Shown here: positions 1,128 through 61,975 of the stretch, piece by piece | Layout of the letters: every line of letters begins with the position of its first letter | How positions within the stretch are numbered: the first letter of the stretch is position 1 | NCBI RefSeq assembly: GCF_001984035.1 | Contig: NZ_CP019449.1 | Span: 4,221,027-4,285,026, forward strand | Reading direction: 5' to 3' | Source of the DNA: Sphingopyxis sp. QXT-31 | GTDB taxonomy: Bacteria > Pseudomonadota > Alphaproteobacteria > Sphingomonadales > Sphingomonadaceae | Length of the DNA: 64,000 bases | Made by a program: the position numbers and the translations under genes | The notes under the pieces: model-generated | Told to the model about the DNA's origin: nothing | The model's database searches: none | The model's input: the letters and a program-made list of their open reading frames with translations, nothing else

Positions 1128-2362
1128 CCGAAAATCCTCTCGACGCGGGCGAGGCCGTCTATCAGCGTCGCCACATCGTCGTCATTGCTATACACACCGA
1201 AACTTGCGCGCGCGGTCGCGGGCACCCCCAGATGCTCCATCAGCGGCTGCGCGCAATGGTGCCCGGCGCGGATCGCGACCCCGCTTTCGTCCAAGATAGT
1301 GCCGATGTCGTGCGGATGAACCCCCGCCATCGAAAAGCTTACAATTCCGGCACTGTTTTCAGGACCATAGAGCGTGATGCTGTTCTTGCGCGAAAGCTGC
1401 TCGCGGAGCCTCGCAACCAGCGAACACTCATGCGCGTGGATCGCATCGATCCCGATCGCATCGACATAATCGACCGCCGCCGCGAGCCCGATCGCCTCGA
1501 TGATCGCGGGGGTTCCCGCCTCGAAGCGCGTCGGGGCGGGGGCGTAGGTCGTGCGTTCGAAAGTGACCCGGTCGATCATCGACCCGCCGCCCTGCCACGG
1601 CGGCAGCCTGTCGAGCTTGTCGCTCCAAAGCACGCCGATGCCCGTCGGGCCGTAAAGCTTGTGCCCCGAGAAGGCATAATAGTCGCAGCCGAGCGCCGCG
1701 ACATCGACGGGCAGCCGCGGCACCGCCTGGCAGCCGTCGATCAGCAGCTCGGCGCCGACGCGGTGCGCGATCTCGGCGGCGCGCGCGACGTCGAGCGGGC
1801 TGCCGAGCACGTTCGAGACATGCGCGAAGGCGACCATATTATGCTCGGGAGTCAGCAGTTTCTCGGCCGCATCGAGGTCGATGCAGCCGTCGGCGGTCAG
1901 CGGGCACACATCGACCTGCCACCCGGCGAGCTGCCAAGGCACGATATTGCTGTGATGCTCGAGCATCGACAGCAGCACGCGGCCCTTCTTCGGATGCGAG
2001 TAGGCGACGAGGTTGATCGCCTCGGTCGCGCCGCGCACGAAGGCAATCTGCTCTTCCTTTGCGCCGATGAACGCCGCGATCCGCCGCCGCGCGGCCTCAT
2101 AGGCGAGCGTCATGTCGGCCGAGCGCGCATAGACGCCGCGGTGCACCGTCGCATAATCGCGTCCCATCGCGTTGACGGTCGCGTCGATGACCGCCTGCGG
2201 TTTCTGCGCGGTCGCGGCGGTATCGAGATAGTGCCAGCCGGGGTTGAGGCCGGGGAATTGGTCTCTAATCCCGTTTGTGTCGAGCGAAGTCGAGACACGT
2301 TGGCGCCCAGCTTCACGTCCCTCAACTTCGCTCGGGACGAACGGGGAAGAGAGGCTGCTCAC
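1124..2362 (-). CDS. sufS: SufS-type cysteine desulfurase (repeat-derived N-terminus)
   Basis: PLP-dependent group II cysteine desulfurase that releases sulfur from cysteine for SufBCD. The PLP lysine is in SGHKLYGPTG (Lys235) and the persulfide cysteine in RAGHHCAQPL (Cys370); the rest matches the family to its usual C-terminus. The family body begins at about residue 32 (IRDQFPGL). The first ~30 residues are encoded by a family A repeat (positions 2270-2345). I see no ATG, GTG or TTG between the repeat and the conserved body. The GTG at 2360-2362 overlaps the sufD stop as GTGA and is therefore the likely start, so the repeat is translated. Confidence 0.93.
   Translation of the reverse strand: MSSLSSPFVPSEVEGREAGRQRVSTSLDTNGIRDQFPGLNPGWHYLDTAATAQKPQAVIDATVNAMGRDYATVHRGVYARSADMTLAYEAARRRIAAFIGAKEEQIAFVRGATEAINLVAYSHPKKGRVLLSMLEHHSNIVPWQLAGWQVDVCPLTADGCIDLDAAEKLLTPEHNMVAFAHVSNVLGSPLDVARAAEIAHRVGAELLIDGCQAVPRLPVDVAALGCDYYAFSGHKLYGPTGIGVLWSDKLDRLPPWQGGGSMIDRVTFERTTYAPAPTRFEAGTPAIIEAIGLAAAVDYVDAIGIDAIHAHECSLVARLREQLSRKNSITLYGPENSAGIVSFSMAGVHPHDIGTILDESGVAIRAGHHCAQPLMEHLGVPATARASFGVYSNDDDVATLIDGLARVERIFG
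2270..2345. repeat. Family A dispersed palindromic repeat, copy 1 (inside sufS)
   Basis: About 76 bp with inverted ends: CCCGTTTGTGTCGAGCGAAG at the left and CTTCGCTCGGGACGAACGGG at the right. It lies within the 5' end of sufS and is read in frame, giving a peptide containing PFVPSEVEG and VSTSLDTNG. Other copies are at about 5804, 25687, 52635, 58018 and 61893. Confidence 0.9.
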
Positions 2363-3090
2363 ACCAGTTCCCCCAGCTTCGCGAGCGCGAGCGCCTGCAA
2401 TTTTTCCTCATCCTCGGCGCCGTCGAAGACGCCCGCGACGAAGGCTTGCAGCAGGATCTTCTTCGCCTCGCCGGGCGGCAGCCCGCGCGACTGGAGATAA
2501 TAAAGACTCATCGCGTCGAGTTCGCCGATCGCGCAGCCGTGCGCGCATTTGACGTCGTCGGCGAAGATTTCGAGCTCTGGTTTGGCGTTCGCGGTTGCGC
2601 TGCGCTCGAGCAGCATCGCCTTCACATCCTGTTCGCTGTCGGTCTGCTGCGCATCGCGCGCGACGGCGACCTTGCCGAGATAGGTGCCGGTGGCATGGCC
2701 GCCGAGGACCGACCGCACAACCTGCCGCGACGTCGCGCCGGGTTCGGCGTGGGTAACCGAGGTGACGATCTCGAGGTTCTGCGCGGCTCCGCCGATCTGC
2801 GCGGCGCCGAGATGGAAGTCGGCGCCCTCGTGCAGGATCACGTTGAGCTCGATACGGCCATAAGCGCCGCCGATGTTGAGAACATGCAGCGACGCGGTCG
2901 CGCCCTTGCCGAGCACCAGCTCGATCTGACGGATCACACCTTCGTCTTGCACGATCGCACGGCGGAAATCGCCACCCGCCGGCACGACGATGGCCTCGGG
3001 CGCGGGCAACGGCCATAGGCGCGCCAGCGCATCCAAATCACTGTATCGCCAGGCCTCATCGCGGCGCGTCGGGAGGACCGCCGTGCTCAC
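2359..3090 (-). CDS. sufD: SufD, Fe-S scaffold complex subunit
   Basis: SufD forms the SufBC2D scaffold with SufB and the ATPase SufC. The protein is about 243 residues, short compared with E. coli SufD (about 420) but typical of the short sphingomonad form that keeps the beta-helix core and C-terminal helices. It starts with TRRDEAWRYSDL, a typical SufD N-terminus, and carries the conserved CAHGC motif near residue 190 together with the following helix (SLYYLQSRGL). The start is a GTG at 3088-3090, preceded by GGAGGGAGG. Its stop overlaps the sufS start by four bases. Confidence 0.9.
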   Translation of the reverse strand: MSTAVLPTRRDEAWRYSDLDALARLWPLPAPEAIVVPAGGDFRRAIVQDEGVIRQIELVLGKGATASLHVLNIGGAYGRIELNVILHEGADFHLGAAQIGGAAQNLEIVTSVTHAEPGATSRQVVRSVLGGHATGTYLGKVAVARDAQQTDSEQDVKAMLLERSATANAKPELEIFADDVKCAHGCAIGELDAMSLYYLQSRGLPPGEAKKILLQAFVAGVFDGAEDEEKLQALALAKLGELV

Positions 3091-3101
3091 GGCCTGCCTC
3101 C

Positions 3102-3167
3102 CTCCGCGTCTCCGCGTCTCCGCGCGAACAAAATAAATGACTCACGCGGAGACGCGGAGACGCGGAG
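3102..3167. repeat. Perfect 23-bp inverted repeat between sufC and sufD
   Basis: The left arm at 3102-3124 is three tandem CTCCGCGT-type units, and its exact reverse complement lies at 3145-3167, with a 20-base AT-richer loop between. The 112-base gap holds no gene. Neither side has the T-run of an intrinsic terminator, so it may be an mRNA-stability or processing hairpin inside the SUF transcript, or a separate dispersed palindrome. Confidence 0.85.
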
Positions 3168-3202
3168 AAAATAAGAGATTGCGCCTTCGGCGCGGAGATG
3201 GG

Positions 3203-3946
3203 TCACGCCGCGATCTCCGCATAGCCTTCGCGTTCGAGTTCGAGCGCGAGTTCGGGGCCGCCCGACTTGACGATGCGGCCGGCGGCGAGGACGTGGACGA
3301 AATCGGGCTGCACATAGTCGAGCAGGCGCTGGTAGTGGGTGATCAGCAGCACCGCCTTGTCGGGGCGGCGCATGATGCTGTTGATCCCGTCGCCGACGAC
3401 GCGCAGCGCGTCGATGTCGAGACCCGAGTCGGTCTCGTCGAGGATCGCGAGCTTGGGATCGAGAATGCCCATCTGCACCATCTCGTTGCGCTTCTTCTCG
3501 CCCCCCGAAAAGCCGACGTTCACGGGGCGCTTGAGCATGTCCATGTCCATCTTGAGCAGCCCCGCCTTCTCGCGCGCCAGCTTCAGGAAGTCGCCGCCCG
3601 ACAACGGCTCTTCTCCGCGCGCCTTGCGCTGGGCGTTCAGGCTTTCGCGCAGGAACTGCACGTTCGACACGCCCGGAATTTCGACCGGATATTGGAAGCC
3701 GAGGAACAGGCCGGCGGCGGCGCGCTCGTGCGGGTCCATGTCGAGCAGGTCGTGCCCGTCAAAAGTCGCCGAACCTTCGGTGACCTCATAGCCAGGGCGT
3801 CCGCCGAGGACATAGGAGAGCGTCGACTTGCCTGCGCCATTGGGGCCCATGATCGCATGGATTTCGCCCGCATTGATGGCGAGCGACAGGCCCTTCAGGA
3901 TCGGCTTGTCGGCAACGGTGGCGTGGAGGTTTTCAATTTTGAGCAT
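3203..3946 (-). CDS. sufC: SufC, Fe-S assembly ATPase
   Basis: ABC-type ATPase of 247 residues that drives the SufBC2D scaffold. Walker A is GPNGAGKST at about 34-42, the ABC signature SGGEKKR at about 147-153, and Walker B LAILDETDSGLD at about 166-177; the ETDSGLD form is characteristic of SufC. ITHYQRLLDY supplies the switch histidine. It is soluble, with no membrane segments. The ATG start lies 12 bases after the stop of the small secreted protein gene. Confidence 0.96.
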   Translation of the reverse strand: MLKIENLHATVADKPILKGLSLAINAGEIHAIMGPNGAGKSTLSYVLGGRPGYEVTEGSATFDGHDLLDMDPHERAAAGLFLGFQYPVEIPGVSNVQFLRESLNAQRKARGEEPLSGGDFLKLAREKAGLLKMDMDMLKRPVNVGFSGGEKKRNEMVQMGILDPKLAILDETDSGLDIDALRVVGDGINSIMRRPDKAVLLITHYQRLLDYVQPDFVHVLAAGRIVKSGGPELALELEREGYAEIAA

Positions 3947-3957
3947 TTATAGTCCGT

Positions 3958-4311
3958 TCAGTTTCCGCCGCGTCGCTGGCGGTCGGTACGTATCTTCTGC
4001 AATAATTTCATGAAGTTCGGCTTTTCCGCGGTATCGAGCTGCGACTTCAGGCCACTGGCCTGATCAACCGGATATTCCTTGTCGATTGCGCCGAAGAGCT
4101 GGGACTTCAGGTCCTTGCAGCCCTCGGTCGCCGCGGCAAAAATCGCATCGTCGGCCACATCGGTCTTGGTCATGCGCACTGCATAAGTCGTCATGCAGCG
4201 GTCGTTGGCCTGCGCGAGCATCATCGCATTGGCCTGCGCTGGCTGCGCATGAACCGCTCCCGCGACAAGCGTCGGGCTCAAAAGGAGGCTGGTGATTAAG
4301 GTTCTGATCAC
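3958..4311 (-). CDS. Small secreted protein embedded in the SUF operon
   Basis: Protein of about 117 residues that I do not recognise. It begins with a clear Sec signal peptide ([18 protein letters not shown], likely cut after AHA near residue 22). The mature part is helical and charged, with two cysteines (RCMTTYAV and [10 protein letters not shown]) that could form a disulfide. It starts with GTG at 4309-4311 overlapping the sufB stop as GTGA, and it ends just before sufC, so it is co-transcribed with cytosolic Fe-S genes although it should be periplasmic. The signal peptide and operon position are seen; the function is unknown. Confidence 0.75.
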
Positions 4312-5795
4312 CCCACGCTCCCCTCAAGGCTGATCCCCAACAACTTCTGCGCCTCGACGGCAAATTCCATCGGCAGCTGCTGCAGCACTTCCTTCGCAAA
4401 GCCGTTGACGATCAGCGCCACCGCCTCTTCCTGCCCCAACCCGCGCTGCATCGCGTAGAAGAGCTGGTCGTCGCTGATCTTGCTCGTCGTCGCTTCATGC
4501 TCGACCGTCGCGGTCGGGTTGCGGACTTCGATATAGGGCACGGTGTGCGCGCCGCATGAGCTGCCCAGAAGCAGGCTGTCGCACTGGGTGAAGTTGCGCA
4601 CGCCCTCGGCGTTGGGCGCGACGCGGACGATGCCGCGATAGGTGTTGTTCGACTTGCCCGCGCTGATCCCCTTCGAAACGATGGTCGAGCGCGTGCGCTT
4701 GCCATTGTGGATCATCTTGGTGCCAGTGTCGGCCTGCTGGTAATTGTTTGTCACCGCGACCGAATAGAATTCGCCGACGCTGTCGTCGCCGTTGAGCACG
4801 CAGCTCGGATATTTCCACGTGATCGCGCTGCCGGTTTCGACCTGCGTCCACGACACCTTGCTGCGCTTGCCCTGGCAGAGCGCGCGCTTGGTGACAAAAT
4901 TATAGATGCCGCCAAGCCCTTCGGCATTGCCGGGATACCAGTTCTGCACGGTCGAATATTTGATCTCGGCATCGTCGAGCGTCACCAGTTCGACCACCGC
5001 CGCATGAAGCTGGTTCTCGTCGCGCATCGGCGCGGTGCAGCCTTCGAGGTAGCTGACGTACGCGCCCTTGTCGGCAATGATCAAAGTCCGCTCGAACTGC
5101 CCCGTATTCTCGGCATTGATGCGGAAATAGGTCGACAGCTCCATCGGGCAGCGCACGCCCTCGGGCACGTAAACGAATGTCCCGTCCGAAAAGACCGCGC
5201 AATTGAGCGTCGCGAAATAATTGTCGTGCATCGGCACGACCTTGCCGAGCCACTTCTTCACCAGCTCGGGATATTCGCGGATCGCCTCCGAAATCGACAG
5301 GAAGATCACCCCCGCGCGCTTCAATTCCTCGCGGAAGGTCGTCGCGACGCTGACGCTGTCGAACACCGCGTCGACCGCGACCTTGCGCGCGCCCTCGACG
5401 CCCGCGAGCACCTTCTGCTCCTCGATCGGGATGCCGAGCTTCTTGTACACCTCGAGGATTTCGGGATCGACCTCGTCGAGGCTGGAGAGCTTCGGCTTCG
5501 CTTTGGGCGCGGCGTAATAATAAGCGTCCTGATAGTCGATCGGCGGGACGTTGAGCTTCGCCCAGTCGGGGGTCTCCATCGTCAACCAGTGGCGGAACGC
5601 CTTCAGCCGCCAGTCGAGCATCCATTCGGGCTCGTTCTTCTTAGCCGAAATGAAGCGGACCGTGTCCTCGGTCAGCCCCTTGGGAGCGAAGTCGGTCTCG
5701 ATGGCCGAGGACCAGCCATGCTCGTAGTCGGCGACCTTCGCCGCGGCGTCGTGCGCGGCCTGGTCCTTGATGCGGGTTTCGGTGTTGTCGGTCAT
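4308..5795 (-). CDS. sufB: SufB, Fe-S scaffold complex subunit
   Basis: Large scaffold protein of 495 residues on which the [Fe-S] cluster is built. Conserved SufB stretches are present: [15 protein letters not shown] near the N-terminus, YLEGCTAP in the middle, [16 protein letters not shown] and [18 protein letters not shown] toward the C-terminus. Length equals the family norm. The ATG at 5793-5795 overlaps the sufR stop as ATGA. An upstream in-frame extension to 6446 exists but runs through sufR on another frame and is not credible. Confidence 0.96.
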
Positions 5796-6301
5796 GCTGA
5801 AATTCCGTTCGCCTCGAGCGAAGTCGAGAGGCCCCTCGGTCGTGCACTGTCGAGGGGTGTCTCGACTTCGCTCGACACGAACGGGTTCAATTTGTGGGGT
5901 GTCACGCTCAAACTCGCCAAACTGATCTCCGCCAACGCCCCGCGCACCGCGCCGTTCACGACGCCCCAATGCGGCTGCACCTTGCAGCTGCCTTCGAGCG
6001 AACAGTCGTGGCGTCCTTCGGCGACGCAGGCGGTGAGCGCGATCGGGCCTTCGACGGCTTCGATGATATCGGCGACGTTGATCGCCGCGGCAGGGCGCGC
6101 GAGGCGGATGCCGCCGCCGCTGCCGCGCGAGGCGACAAGCAGGCCCGCGCGCGCGAGCTGGCTCACCAGCTTCTGCGCGGTCGGCCCCGGAATGCCCGTC
6201 TGCTCGGCGAGCATGCCGGCGCTGAGCGCGACCGACCCGCACTGGCGGGCGGCGGCGCTCATCAGCACCACGGCATAATCGGCAAGGTTGGACAGGCGCA
6301 T
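5792..6301 (-). CDS. sufR: SufR-type Rrf2 family regulator (repeat-derived C-terminus)
   Basis: Rrf2-family regulator of 169 residues heading the SUF operon. The N-terminal winged helix ([17 protein letters not shown], then a helix-turn-helix at about 25-60) is typical. Three cysteines at about 92, 100 and 106 ([16 protein letters not shown]) are the expected [Fe-S] ligands that let it sense cluster supply. The family body ends near residue 138. The last ~30 residues, including [10 protein letters not shown] and LSTSLEANG, are encoded by a family A repeat. A palindrome overlapping its own promoter suggests autorepression. Confidence 0.93.
5804..5885. repeat. Family A dispersed palindromic repeat, copy 2 (inside sufR)
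   Basis: About 82 bp; the ends read TCCGTTCGCCTCGAGCGAAG and CTTCGCTCGACACGAACGGG. It occupies the 3' end of sufR and is read in frame to the stop codon. The frame used is the same as in the sufS copy (S-E-V-E near the left end of the peptide, S-T-S-L-x-x-N-G at the right). Confidence 0.9.
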
Positions 6302-6342
6302 CGCGGCTTTCTATCGTGCGCGAATTGCGAACGATTATTAAC

Positions 6343-6359
6343 TGGAGTAAATTACTCCA
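6343..6359. promoter_or_regulatory. Palindromic operator of the SUF operon
   Basis: TGGAGTAA-A-TTACTCCA is a perfect 8+1+8 palindrome. It begins right after the proposed -10 box of sufR and so covers the transcription start. The obvious candidate ligand is the Rrf2 regulator encoded immediately downstream. The palindrome is seen; the binding is inferred. Confidence 0.75.
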
Positions 6360-6361
6360 CT

Positions 6362-6390
6362 TATATAGGCGCGCTGTCCGCGCGGCGCAA
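6362..6390 (-). promoter_or_regulatory. Predicted SUF operon promoter
   Basis: Read on the minus strand: TTGCGC (-35, 6390-6385), 17-base spacer, TATATA (-10, 6367-6362). It lies about 60 bases upstream of the sufR ATG with the palindromic operator just downstream. Confidence 0.6.
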
Positions 6391-6416
6391 GCAAGCCGGT
6401 TTTGCGGAGGCCCAAG

Positions 6417-6455
6417 AAAAAAAGGCACCCATCTGGCCGAAGCCAAATGAGTGCC
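6417..6455 (-). terminator. Strong intrinsic terminator with UUCG tetraloop
   Basis: On the minus strand the arms GGCACTCATTTGGC and GCCAGATGGGTGCC pair over 14 bp (two G-U pairs) around a UUCG tetraloop, followed directly by seven U residues. It ends about 27 bases before the sufR -35 box, so it also shields the SUF promoter from upstream transcription. Confidence 0.9.
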
Positions 6456-6580
6456 AAGATGAAGGTCTCGGTCCCCTGAAAGGGGCGAGCTCTTCTGGGT
6501 CGCAGCACCCGATTATGCCGGGGCGGCGATTCGCGATTGGATGGAAACGCCAAAACGACGGTGTATGAAATTTTTGGTGG
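6417..6580 (-). ncRNA. Candidate small RNA upstream of sufR (boundaries uncertain)
   Basis: The 487-base gap between sufR and the AraC-type gene has no credible ORF. The minus-strand region from about 6580 to 6417 holds several hairpins (for example CCCCT-TTC-AGGGG and GGGT-GCTGCG-ACCC) and ends in a textbook intrinsic terminator. A long repeat separates it from the upstream araC-type gene, so it is probably its own transcript of about 150 nt. I found no convincing promoter, and it does not match 4.5S, tmRNA, RNase P or any 6S RNA I can recognise. The 5' end is a guess. Confidence 0.4.
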
Positions 6581-6603
6581 TTAATCGGGGATTTGGGCAA
6601 AAT

Positions 6604-25686: not shown

Positions 25687-25762
25687 CCCGTTTGTCCCGA
25701 GCGAAGTCGAGGGACGCAACTGCCGGCGCTAGCGTGTCTCGACTTCGCTCGACACGAGCGGG
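25687..25762. repeat. Family A dispersed palindromic repeat, copy 3
   Basis: Fills the gap between the convergent exporter and ABC permease genes. Ends: CCCGTTTGTCCCGAGCGAAG and CTTCGCTCGACACGAGCGGG. Here it is outside both reading frames. Confidence 0.88.
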
Positions 25763-32646: not shown

Positions 32647-32668
32647 CCCCTCCCGCCTGCGGGAGGGG
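32647..32668. repeat. Short perfect palindrome of the repeat family
   Basis: CCCCTCCCGC-CT-GCGGGAGGGG, 10-bp arms, between a small hypothetical gene and rlmN. It resembles the outer arm of family B elements on its own and could be a minimal remnant. Confidence 0.75.
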
Positions 32669-33172: not shown

Positions 33173-33309
33173 TTCCCCTCCCGCAAGCGGGAGGGGCAGC
33201 GAGACTTGCGAACTTGTCCGCTAGTCGCAGCGGGGTGGGCATCGCAGCGGCCGGTGCTCGCCACGCTCGCGCCCACCCCCCGACCCCCTCCCGCTTGCGG
33301 GAGGGGGAA
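33173..33309. repeat. Family B-related structured repeat (short form)
   Basis: About 137 bp: outer arms CCCCTCCCGCAAGCGGGAGG and CCCCTCCCGCTTGCGGGAGG, each itself a palindrome, and a middle with GCAGCGAGACTTGCGAAC as in the long copies. It lies between the SDR gene and the 114-residue hypothetical gene. The remaining gap (33023-33172) shows no other feature. Confidence 0.8.
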
Positions 33310-52634: not shown

Positions 52635-52766
52635 CCGTTCGCATCGAGCGAAGTCGAGATGTCCATCGGCGTTGCGCAAGGTCGAAGGGTGTCTCAACTT
52701 CCACCAAAGGGGGAAGTTTATCCCGAGCGCCTGCCAAGGCAGTCGAGGGGCTCGACACGAACGGGG
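52635..52766. repeat. Family A dispersed repeat, copy 4 (enlarged)
   Basis: Between the Nudix-DUF47 gene and pit. The left end CCGTTCGCATCGAGCGAAG and the right end CTCGACACGAACGGGG are as in other copies, but about 50 extra bases sit inside (CACCAAAGGGGGAAGTTTAT region), suggesting insertion or two merged copies. Confidence 0.75.
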
Positions 52767-58017: not shown

Positions 58018-58096
58018 CCGTTCGTGTCGAGCGAAGTCGAGACATCTTTGGGAAGCGCCAGCTTTCGCGTGTCCCGACTTCGCTCGATACGAACGG
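58018..58096. repeat. Family A dispersed palindromic repeat, copy 5
   Basis: Between the DUF423 and K+ channel genes, which converge. Ends: CCCGTTCGTGTCGAGCGAAG and CTTCGCTCGATACGAACGG. Confidence 0.9.
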
Positions 58097-61892: not shown

Positions 61893-61975
61893 CCGTTCGC
61901 ATCGAGCGAAGTCGAGATGCCCCTCGTTGCTGCGCAAGGGCGATGAGTGTCTCGACTTCGCTCGACACGAACGGG
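61893..61975. repeat. Family A dispersed palindromic repeat, copy 6
   Basis: Between serS and surE in the same transcript direction. Ends: CCGTTCGCATCGAGCGAAG and CTTCGCTCGACACGAACGGG. It is outside both reading frames but probably within the serS-surE mRNA. Confidence 0.9.

Follow-up and report, generated by a model that had tools for sequence, protein, structure and literature searches.

The question raised by the sufR locus of Sphingopyxis sp. QXT-31 is how a dispersed palindromic repeat came to encode the C-terminus of a conserved regulator, directly in front of the next gene of its operon, and what accounts for its retention and reading frame there: the repeat itself, the RNA hairpin that it can form, or the site into which it was inserted. 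To answer it, the element was followed through the genome of QXT-31, the sufR-sufB junctions of the genus, other coding sites and predicted proteins at large.

The T1 repeat in the suf operon and genome of QXT-31

The window, i.e., the whole stretch of DNA that was analyzed, comprises the last 64 kb of the single-contig 4.285 Mb genome of Sphingopyxis sp. QXT-31. The sufR gene (positions 5792-6301, minus strand) encodes an Rrf2-type SUF regulator of 169 amino acid residues and was identified from its open reading frame (ORF) and from TIGR02944, which matched residues 1-130 with 114.4 bits (cut-off, 110.65). Because this match stops at residue 130, the repeat, named T1, encodes only the tail of SufR. 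Found by an arm search, it is an inverted pair of REP-like arms (5805-5828 and 5861-5884) with a short spacer between them, about 80 bp in all (5805-5884), and it supplies most of the tail. The sufR TGA (5794-5792) and the sufB ATG (5795-5793) overlap by 4 nt in the sequence ATGA (5792-5795, minus strand), and the statement of the first-pass annotation that the SufR stop codon directly overlaps the sufB start is thus correct. The operon continues on the minus strand with sufB (4308-5795) and sufC (3203-3946), both deduced from ORFs and a gene caller, the latter being a putative sufC named from its sequence. These are followed by sufD (2359-3090; an ORF of uncertain start, placed at 3036 by the gene caller), the stop codon of which overlaps the GTG of sufS (1124-2362; ORF and TIGR01979).

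Another T1 copy (2271-2344; arms 2271-2294 and 2321-2344) encodes an N-terminal extension of SufS in a phase identical to that of the sufR copy. Both arms of each copy are in one common phase (0/2 and 0/2), and the arms and the phase agree with the earlier claim that sufR carries a second T1 copy encoding its C-terminus in the frame used in SufS. The TIGR01979 match (score 469.4, slightly below the curated cut-off of 475.1) begins at residue 32 of SufS, past the repeat. Since the GTG at 2362 is not followed by any further in-frame ATG, GTG or TTG ahead of the SufS body, translation must begin upstream of the repeat unless ATT serves as the start codon.

In total, the window contains 10 matches to the 15-mer core of T1 (at most one mismatch), whereas dinucleotide shuffles gave 0.02 on average. 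Intergenic T1 pairs were located by arm search at 25688-25761, 58018-58096 and 61893-61974, together with a single intergenic arm at 52635-52658 (minus strand). An Rfam search of window positions 2100-6600 returned nothing at the gathering score. As a separate observation, three palindromes of another family, T4 (CCCTCCCGCNNGCGGGAGGG), lie in a segment of less than 660 bp inside the window (32648-32667, 33176-33195 and 33286-33305), around the sites where two genes of the minus strand end.

A T1 pair consists of two arms with the consensus CCGTTCGTGTCGAGCGAAGTCGAGACAC, inverted around a short spacer. In the genome, the 15-base core (at most one mismatch) occurs 97 + 100 times, and a reversed control pattern occurs 1 + 0 times; the exact core is present in 75 of 80 Sphingopyxis genomes, including QXT-31. 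Among the matches listed, 83 sites were covered by 74 stretches and the window, which yielded 87 pairs and five single arms; with one poor pair at 2606486 (3 + 3 mismatches) left out, the genome holds at least 86 T1 pairs. Genes were predicted with a purpose-built gene caller (coding density, 0.89), and 76 of the 86 pairs were found outside called genes. Of the other 10, four overlap doubtful ORFs of 35-36 amino acids and two coincide with the start of a gene; these six were excluded from the in-gene count, which leaves four copies in convincing genes. The convincing copies are those in sufR, sufS, ubiG (L210:2575-3390, minus strand; genome position 2000504) and a gene of 241 codons with T1 at its N-terminus (L248:2396-3121, minus strand; genome position 3913641). 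P0048, a relative of the 241-residue protein, is annotated with PF13761 (DUF4166). Further matches to family cores in QXT-31 numbered 135 for T1, 10 for T2-like sequences, 19 for T3 and, in the window only, six for T4.

A RAYT transposase was considered as the mover of T1 and rejected, as PF01797 has no match in QXT-31. On plasmids, T1 was found in one record (81% identity), with no annotated gene beneath it. A possible strand bias of T1 was dropped, the underlying site listing omitting exact arms.

Palindromic families at the sufR-sufB junction and at other coding sites

SufR was found in 76 of the 80 genomes of the genus, and all 76 junctions were read. At least four palindromic families have occupied the sufR-sufB junction in Sphingopyxis: T1 in 13 genomes, T2 in 25 (two of them, G035 and G097, assigned by eye after the pattern had missed them), T3 in four and T4 in 13, the remaining 21 junctions being free of repeats. 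In every genome the SufR frame reaches a stop codon between 4 bases inside and 11 bases before the sufB ATG, the nearest ATG being taken where the first pass had missed it. The distance from stop codon to ATG is -4 in 12 of the 13 T1 junctions and -1 in the other, -4 in all 13 T4 junctions, +1 in all four T3 junctions, and +2 to +11 in all 25 T2 junctions. It had been proposed that the repeat also sets the coupling distance between the two genes; this is not sustained, as different families give different distances and 19 of the 21 repeat-free junctions also overlap by 4 nt. Beyond Sphingopyxis, 10 of the 21 SufR proteins read are at most 138 residues long, several of them with ATGA, which implies that the overlap predates the repeats.

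Each family encodes a tail of its own: APAKAG..APAFAGATS or similar for T2, RPELVEG..STSSARTG for T3, and KPLPxAGGVWGG..PSPNPSRKREGRIEA for T4, the T4 copies at sufR having GAGGATAGAAGCATG in common, or nearly so. The T2 junctions, e.g., that of G033, read CGTCATCCCAGCGAAAGCTGGGAT, which was compared by eye with the CGTC-type tag and stem-loop of known REPs. An extra in-frame stretch of 15 nt is present in three of the T1 copies, and 45 nt are missing from another. Repeats within repeats were also seen. The right arm of the sufR-tail T1 of L106, L109 and L113 (G062, G064 and G078) holds an in-frame insert resembling the T3 core (SNPERVEG), and the left arm of the sufR-tail T2 of L140, L145, L160 and L123 (G060, G079, G074 and G081) holds another in-frame palindrome of the GTGCCGGGAGTCACGTGCCTCCCGGCAC type.

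The same behavior was observed in other core proteins. At the head of SufS (21 loci of the genus read), T1 was found in nine loci, a T4-like element in three, another palindrome in one and none in eight, all inserts being in frame. In the CarA linker, between two blocks aligned with structure 1t36, T1 occupies five of the 52 loci read and T4 eight, the latter in two phases; 39 loci, including that of QXT-31, are empty (the 52 come from 73 matching genomes, and ten of the unread ones, which match the query over its full length, may also have an insert). In TrpD, the site of which was read in few of 12 loci, T1 in P0017 and T3 in G082 lie at the identical place. UbiG, identified by TIGR01983, carries T1 in QXT-31 in frame between conserved methyltransferase blocks; in an alignment with structure 4kdc, the block before the insert extends to residue 114 and the one after it begins at residue 125. 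In the 30 UbiG loci read from 72 matching genomes, the loop holds T1 in 13, a small remnant in one and another long sequence in one, and is short in 15. Thus, one site is occupied by different families in SufS, CarA and TrpD, and is filled or empty in UbiG. A 17-base palindrome (CCGTTCGACACGAACGG) was seen in ubiG of L268 (G031) where relatives carry T1, as if the arms had recombined with loss of the center, the frame being intact.

The junction state hardly tracks the local phylogeny. On a tree of the sufR body and sufB for 67 of the 76 genomes (23 of 64 inner branches below 80% support), it requires 34 changes against a mean of 37.0 in shuffles, 22 of 200 shuffles being as low, and the T1 state by itself requires 13 changes for its 13 rows. 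On the UbiG tree, the 10 changes of insert state equal the shuffled mean of 10.0. The 13 sufR copies of T1 nevertheless share a mark: 11 of them end one arm in exactly GCTCGAGGCGAACGG, against one of 123 comparable arms in QXT-31. Because of this common arm variant the 13 copies count as one insertion, and the independence of copies assumed by the first-pass annotation falls away. Taken together, these sequences suggest that one sufR T1 allele may have moved between species or persisted as variation common to them, and that recombination may have occurred near the junction.

Flanking sequences were compared in 70 of the 76 genomes. Genomes with the same junction state are more alike over the final 30 nt of the sufR body (z 2.3; 2.9 without T3), and there is no signal further up. 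In the first 60 nt of sufB, the same-state likeness (z 3.6-3.8) falls to z -0.9 without the four T3 genomes; the linkage of junction class to the sufB start was accordingly withdrawn as general evidence. At the UbiG site, no linkage of state to the adjoining sequence was found, and a weak signal appeared 240-360 nt downstream. A filled and an empty locus (G030 and G029, respectively) have UbiG flanks that differ by less than 3%, the bases adjoining the insert differing as well. Imported flanks are therefore visible only on the sufR side, in those last 30 nt, and in this UbiG pair, since linkage on the sufB side needs T3.

These patterns would fit a cross-species pool of repeat alleles, in which modules of different families are swapped at the SufR tail, the SufS head, the UbiG loop and the CarA linker along with a few tens of bases; orthologous core proteins would then differ in peptides that are encoded by repeats and can replace one another. 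We put this forward tentatively, as somewhat less probable than not, its weight being reduced because the sufB-side linkage depends on four T3 genomes. The scattered copies might instead be independent insertions into a favored target sequence, in which case species would not have exchanged alleles. The absence of class linkage to sufB beyond T3, the lack of linkage next to the UbiG site, and the T1 elements with different arms in the SufR tails of other genera are what such insertions would leave behind. However, separate insertions would hardly bring the same rare arm end to 11 of 13 sufR copies or the same GAGGATAGAAGCATG, or nearly so, to the T4 copies, and no target motif was found; we consider this the best of the alternatives to our reading of the locus, albeit an unlikely one.

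RNA folding, reading frame and survival of the repeat in genes

The RNA of the QXT-31 junction was predicted to fold with -64.2 kcal/mol (z -8.6). Median energies for 74 of the 76 junctions were -51.8 (T1), -61.2 (T2), -77.2 (T4) and -44.5 kcal/mol (T3), all stronger than the -16.5 kcal/mol of junctions without a repeat, although the stretches folded measured 118-130 nt with a repeat and 80 nt without, and T3 is unremarkable relative to shuffles (median z -1.5). The end of the T4 arm, moreover, reads GGAGGGGAGGAT, which is a good Shine-Dalgarno sequence and immediately precedes the start codon of sufB. An effect of the hairpin on sufR-sufB coupling is possible on these grounds. That the palindrome is retained for such a hairpin, which would tune coupling or mRNA stability with translation as a by-product, is improbable: 21 of the 76 genomes manage without any repeat, and the same families lie within UbiG, CarA and TrpD, away from such junctions.

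The three frames of T1 were designated phase A, which encodes the PF[AV]-type peptide and is used at sufR and sufS, and phases B and C. Of the four convincing in-gene copies in QXT-31, three are in phase A and that of the 241-residue protein is in phase C, against the favored frame; a frame bias drawn from QXT-31 by itself was dropped, four copies being too few. Subsequently, the T1 element in its three frames, each with identical filler, was compared with 5.8 billion predicted proteins (E <= 0.01). Matching proteins numbered 36 for the favored frame and 3 and 11 for the others (out of 670, 328 and 88 candidates, respectively). Adapter-like ends, recognized by motif, account for 5 of the 36, 2 of the 3 and 7 of the 11, leaving 31, 1 and 4.

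When counted as gene families, 10 of 14 use phase A, three phase C and one phase B (p = 0.004 against one third and about 0.012 for any one frame, the families having been picked post hoc). The phase A families are UbiG, SufR, SufS, an IscS/NifS-type cysteine desulfurase with an internal T1 copy, TrpD, CarA, PAPS reductase, a GIY-YIG protein, and pieces of ValRS (P0024) and Fmt (P0028), which appear truncated and were kept in the count. Phase C comprises DUF4166, the N-terminus of MurB, and SufC. The last was deduced from P0009 and P0012, which resemble antisense ORFs over sufC (window 3137-3952, plus strand) containing T1, and which would place T1 in frame in sufC of other species, in phase C of the sense strand. 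The single phase B family consists of P0038 and P0039, which we take to resemble RluA-type enzymes. Proteins without a recognized domain were left out, as was NuoK (P0049 and P0050), where the repeat presumably precedes the true gene start. P0032, a GIY-YIG protein, ends with two tandem T1 pieces, of which one is in phase C and the next in phase A. In other genera, the right arm of a T1-like element is read in phase A at five SufR loci (L424, L431, L432, L437 and L438); the left arm has decayed at these loci and can be assigned clearly in L438, to phase B. The excess of one frame among in-gene copies that the first-pass annotation had led one to expect was therefore found in QXT-31, among database proteins and among families, with exceptions in both other frames.

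For the sufR copy of QXT-31, the three phases have different consequences. Phase A ends after 30 codons at ATGA, phase B would extend for 80 codons, and phase C, which has no stop codon in the examined stretch, is the SufB frame and would fuse SufR and SufB. Because phases B and C overrun into sufB or fuse with it, an intact operon allows phase A at this position.

The same annotation had read the common frame as a sign that the element is adapted to be translated harmlessly, that is, that selection keeps T1 itself free of stop codons and its peptide innocuous in one frame. In accordance with this, none of the six frames contains a stop codon in 38 of 86 T1 copies, whereas the same is true of 6% of palindromic shuffles, 9.7% of 80-mers from the genome and 2.5% of those from intergenic DNA; one frame is favored among database proteins; and all four convincing in-gene copies, against 33 of 86 overall, have a core length of 2 modulo 3, so that their two arms remain in a common phase. 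However, the copies are related, and the openness of their arms is a single observation; 76 of 86 lie outside genes; the T4 inserts in CarA use two phases; and filtering among insertions makes the same prediction. Six-frame openness makes T1 survivable in genes without demonstrating adaptation, because T1 copies share ancestry and the loss of frame-breaking insertions yields the same picture. We doubt that T1 was adapted in this way, and the frame excess is best explained by selection among insertions.

That SufR ends before the repeat and SufS starts after it, as an artefact of annotation, is highly improbable: many N-terminal in-gene REPs have been ascribed to wrong start sites in the available text of Di Nocera et al. 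(2013; PMC3733652), but in QXT-31 the SufR domain runs on into the repeat without a stop codon, SufS has no ATG, GTG or TTG past it, and the copies in UbiG, CarA, TrpD and the cysteine desulfurase are internal.

Proposed origin of the SufR tail and comparison with known systems

We consider it likely that T1 is a dispersed REPIN-like element that was absorbed into the coding sequence of SufR at a permissive site, its phase kept by selection among insertions, and that the junction alleles of the genus probably spread from one species to another or are old variants that several species have retained. As the conserved domain of SufR ends before the element, the tail and the junction would form the permissive site. 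A palindromic element could persist there if its frame stays open to a stop codon at or just before the sufB start, the pattern seen in all 76 genomes, and such a frame would keep the translation of sufR and sufB coupled. Once formed, junction alleles were probably exchanged between species or retained as shared variation, which we infer because each class has common marks and yet scatters over the local tree. The preference for phase A would reflect selection among insertions: at sufR of QXT-31 it is the sole phase that ends at sufB, and elsewhere its peptide may be the least harmful. Tails, loops and linkers would tolerate such elements, and frame-breaking insertions would be lost. DUF4166 in QXT-31, MurB, probably SufC, and the SufR left arm of L438 are counter-examples to phase A.

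Among closely related genomes, the same positions of several core proteins either lack a repeat or hold palindromes of different kinds, which constitutes a natural experiment. It maps protein positions that tolerate 20 to 40 foreign residues, indicates that coupling within the operon persists when the junction is replaced, and offers a way to test if transposition or the exchange of alleles spreads coding repeats. There is also a warning that identical short peptides in unrelated proteins may be derived from repeats and not from a shared domain.

In-gene REPs and Rickettsia palindromic elements (RPEs) are already known; it is the turnover of several families at coding sites that we regard as new. 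In the openly accessible literature on Sphingopyxis and Sphingomonadaceae, one relevant paper was found. The available text of that paper describes GTAG and CGTC REPs, short palindromes that are mainly intergenic, with some in frame within known genes, and includes S. alaskensis (Di Nocera et al., 2013; PMC3733652). T1 is likewise a short, mostly intergenic palindrome with some in-frame copies. According to the same text, CGTC REPs are without a dedicated transposase and are characterized by a CGTC-type tag, a stem of 8-9 bp, a loop of 4-5 bases and a CCA-like tail, and two Xanthomonas recB genes carry different REPs at about one site. T1 was not assigned to the CGTC REPs, as its arm consensus, judged by eye, does not show this set of features. 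The part of the paper available describes no frame preference, genus-wide scatter or serial occupation by four families, and an overlap of its intragenic REPs with the genes treated here is possible.

By its inverted arms with a short spacer, its repetition in the genome (86 pairs) and its mostly extragenic position (76 of 86), T1 agrees with REPINs, which in the available text are pairs of REPs in inverted orientation, closely spaced, located mainly outside genes and accompanied by RAYT transposases (Bertels and Rainey, 2011; PMC3116915). It differs from them in that the RAYT model PF01797 has no match in QXT-31 and has matches in 15 of the 80 genomes of the genus, against 75 of 80 for T1. 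Intragenic enterobacterial MITEs (ERIC and others) are small mobile repeats translated in frame in genes (reviewed in PMC2229807); they have other sequences and hosts than T1, and serial occupation of one coding site is not described in the part of the review available. Similar to T1 in behavior, and in behavior only, are the RPEs, the classic example of palindromes that lie in frame within alphaproteobacterial core genes, where each family encodes a peptide of conserved sequence (PMC10969869; PMC2229807); like T1, they lie in frame in conserved genes and encode a conserved peptide. As far as the available texts go, however, RPEs are longer (105-150 bp), and every ortholog of an RPE-bearing gene in Rickettsia has the insert at one locus (PMC3767692), whereas the Sphingopyxis repeats are patchy and the family at a site changes.
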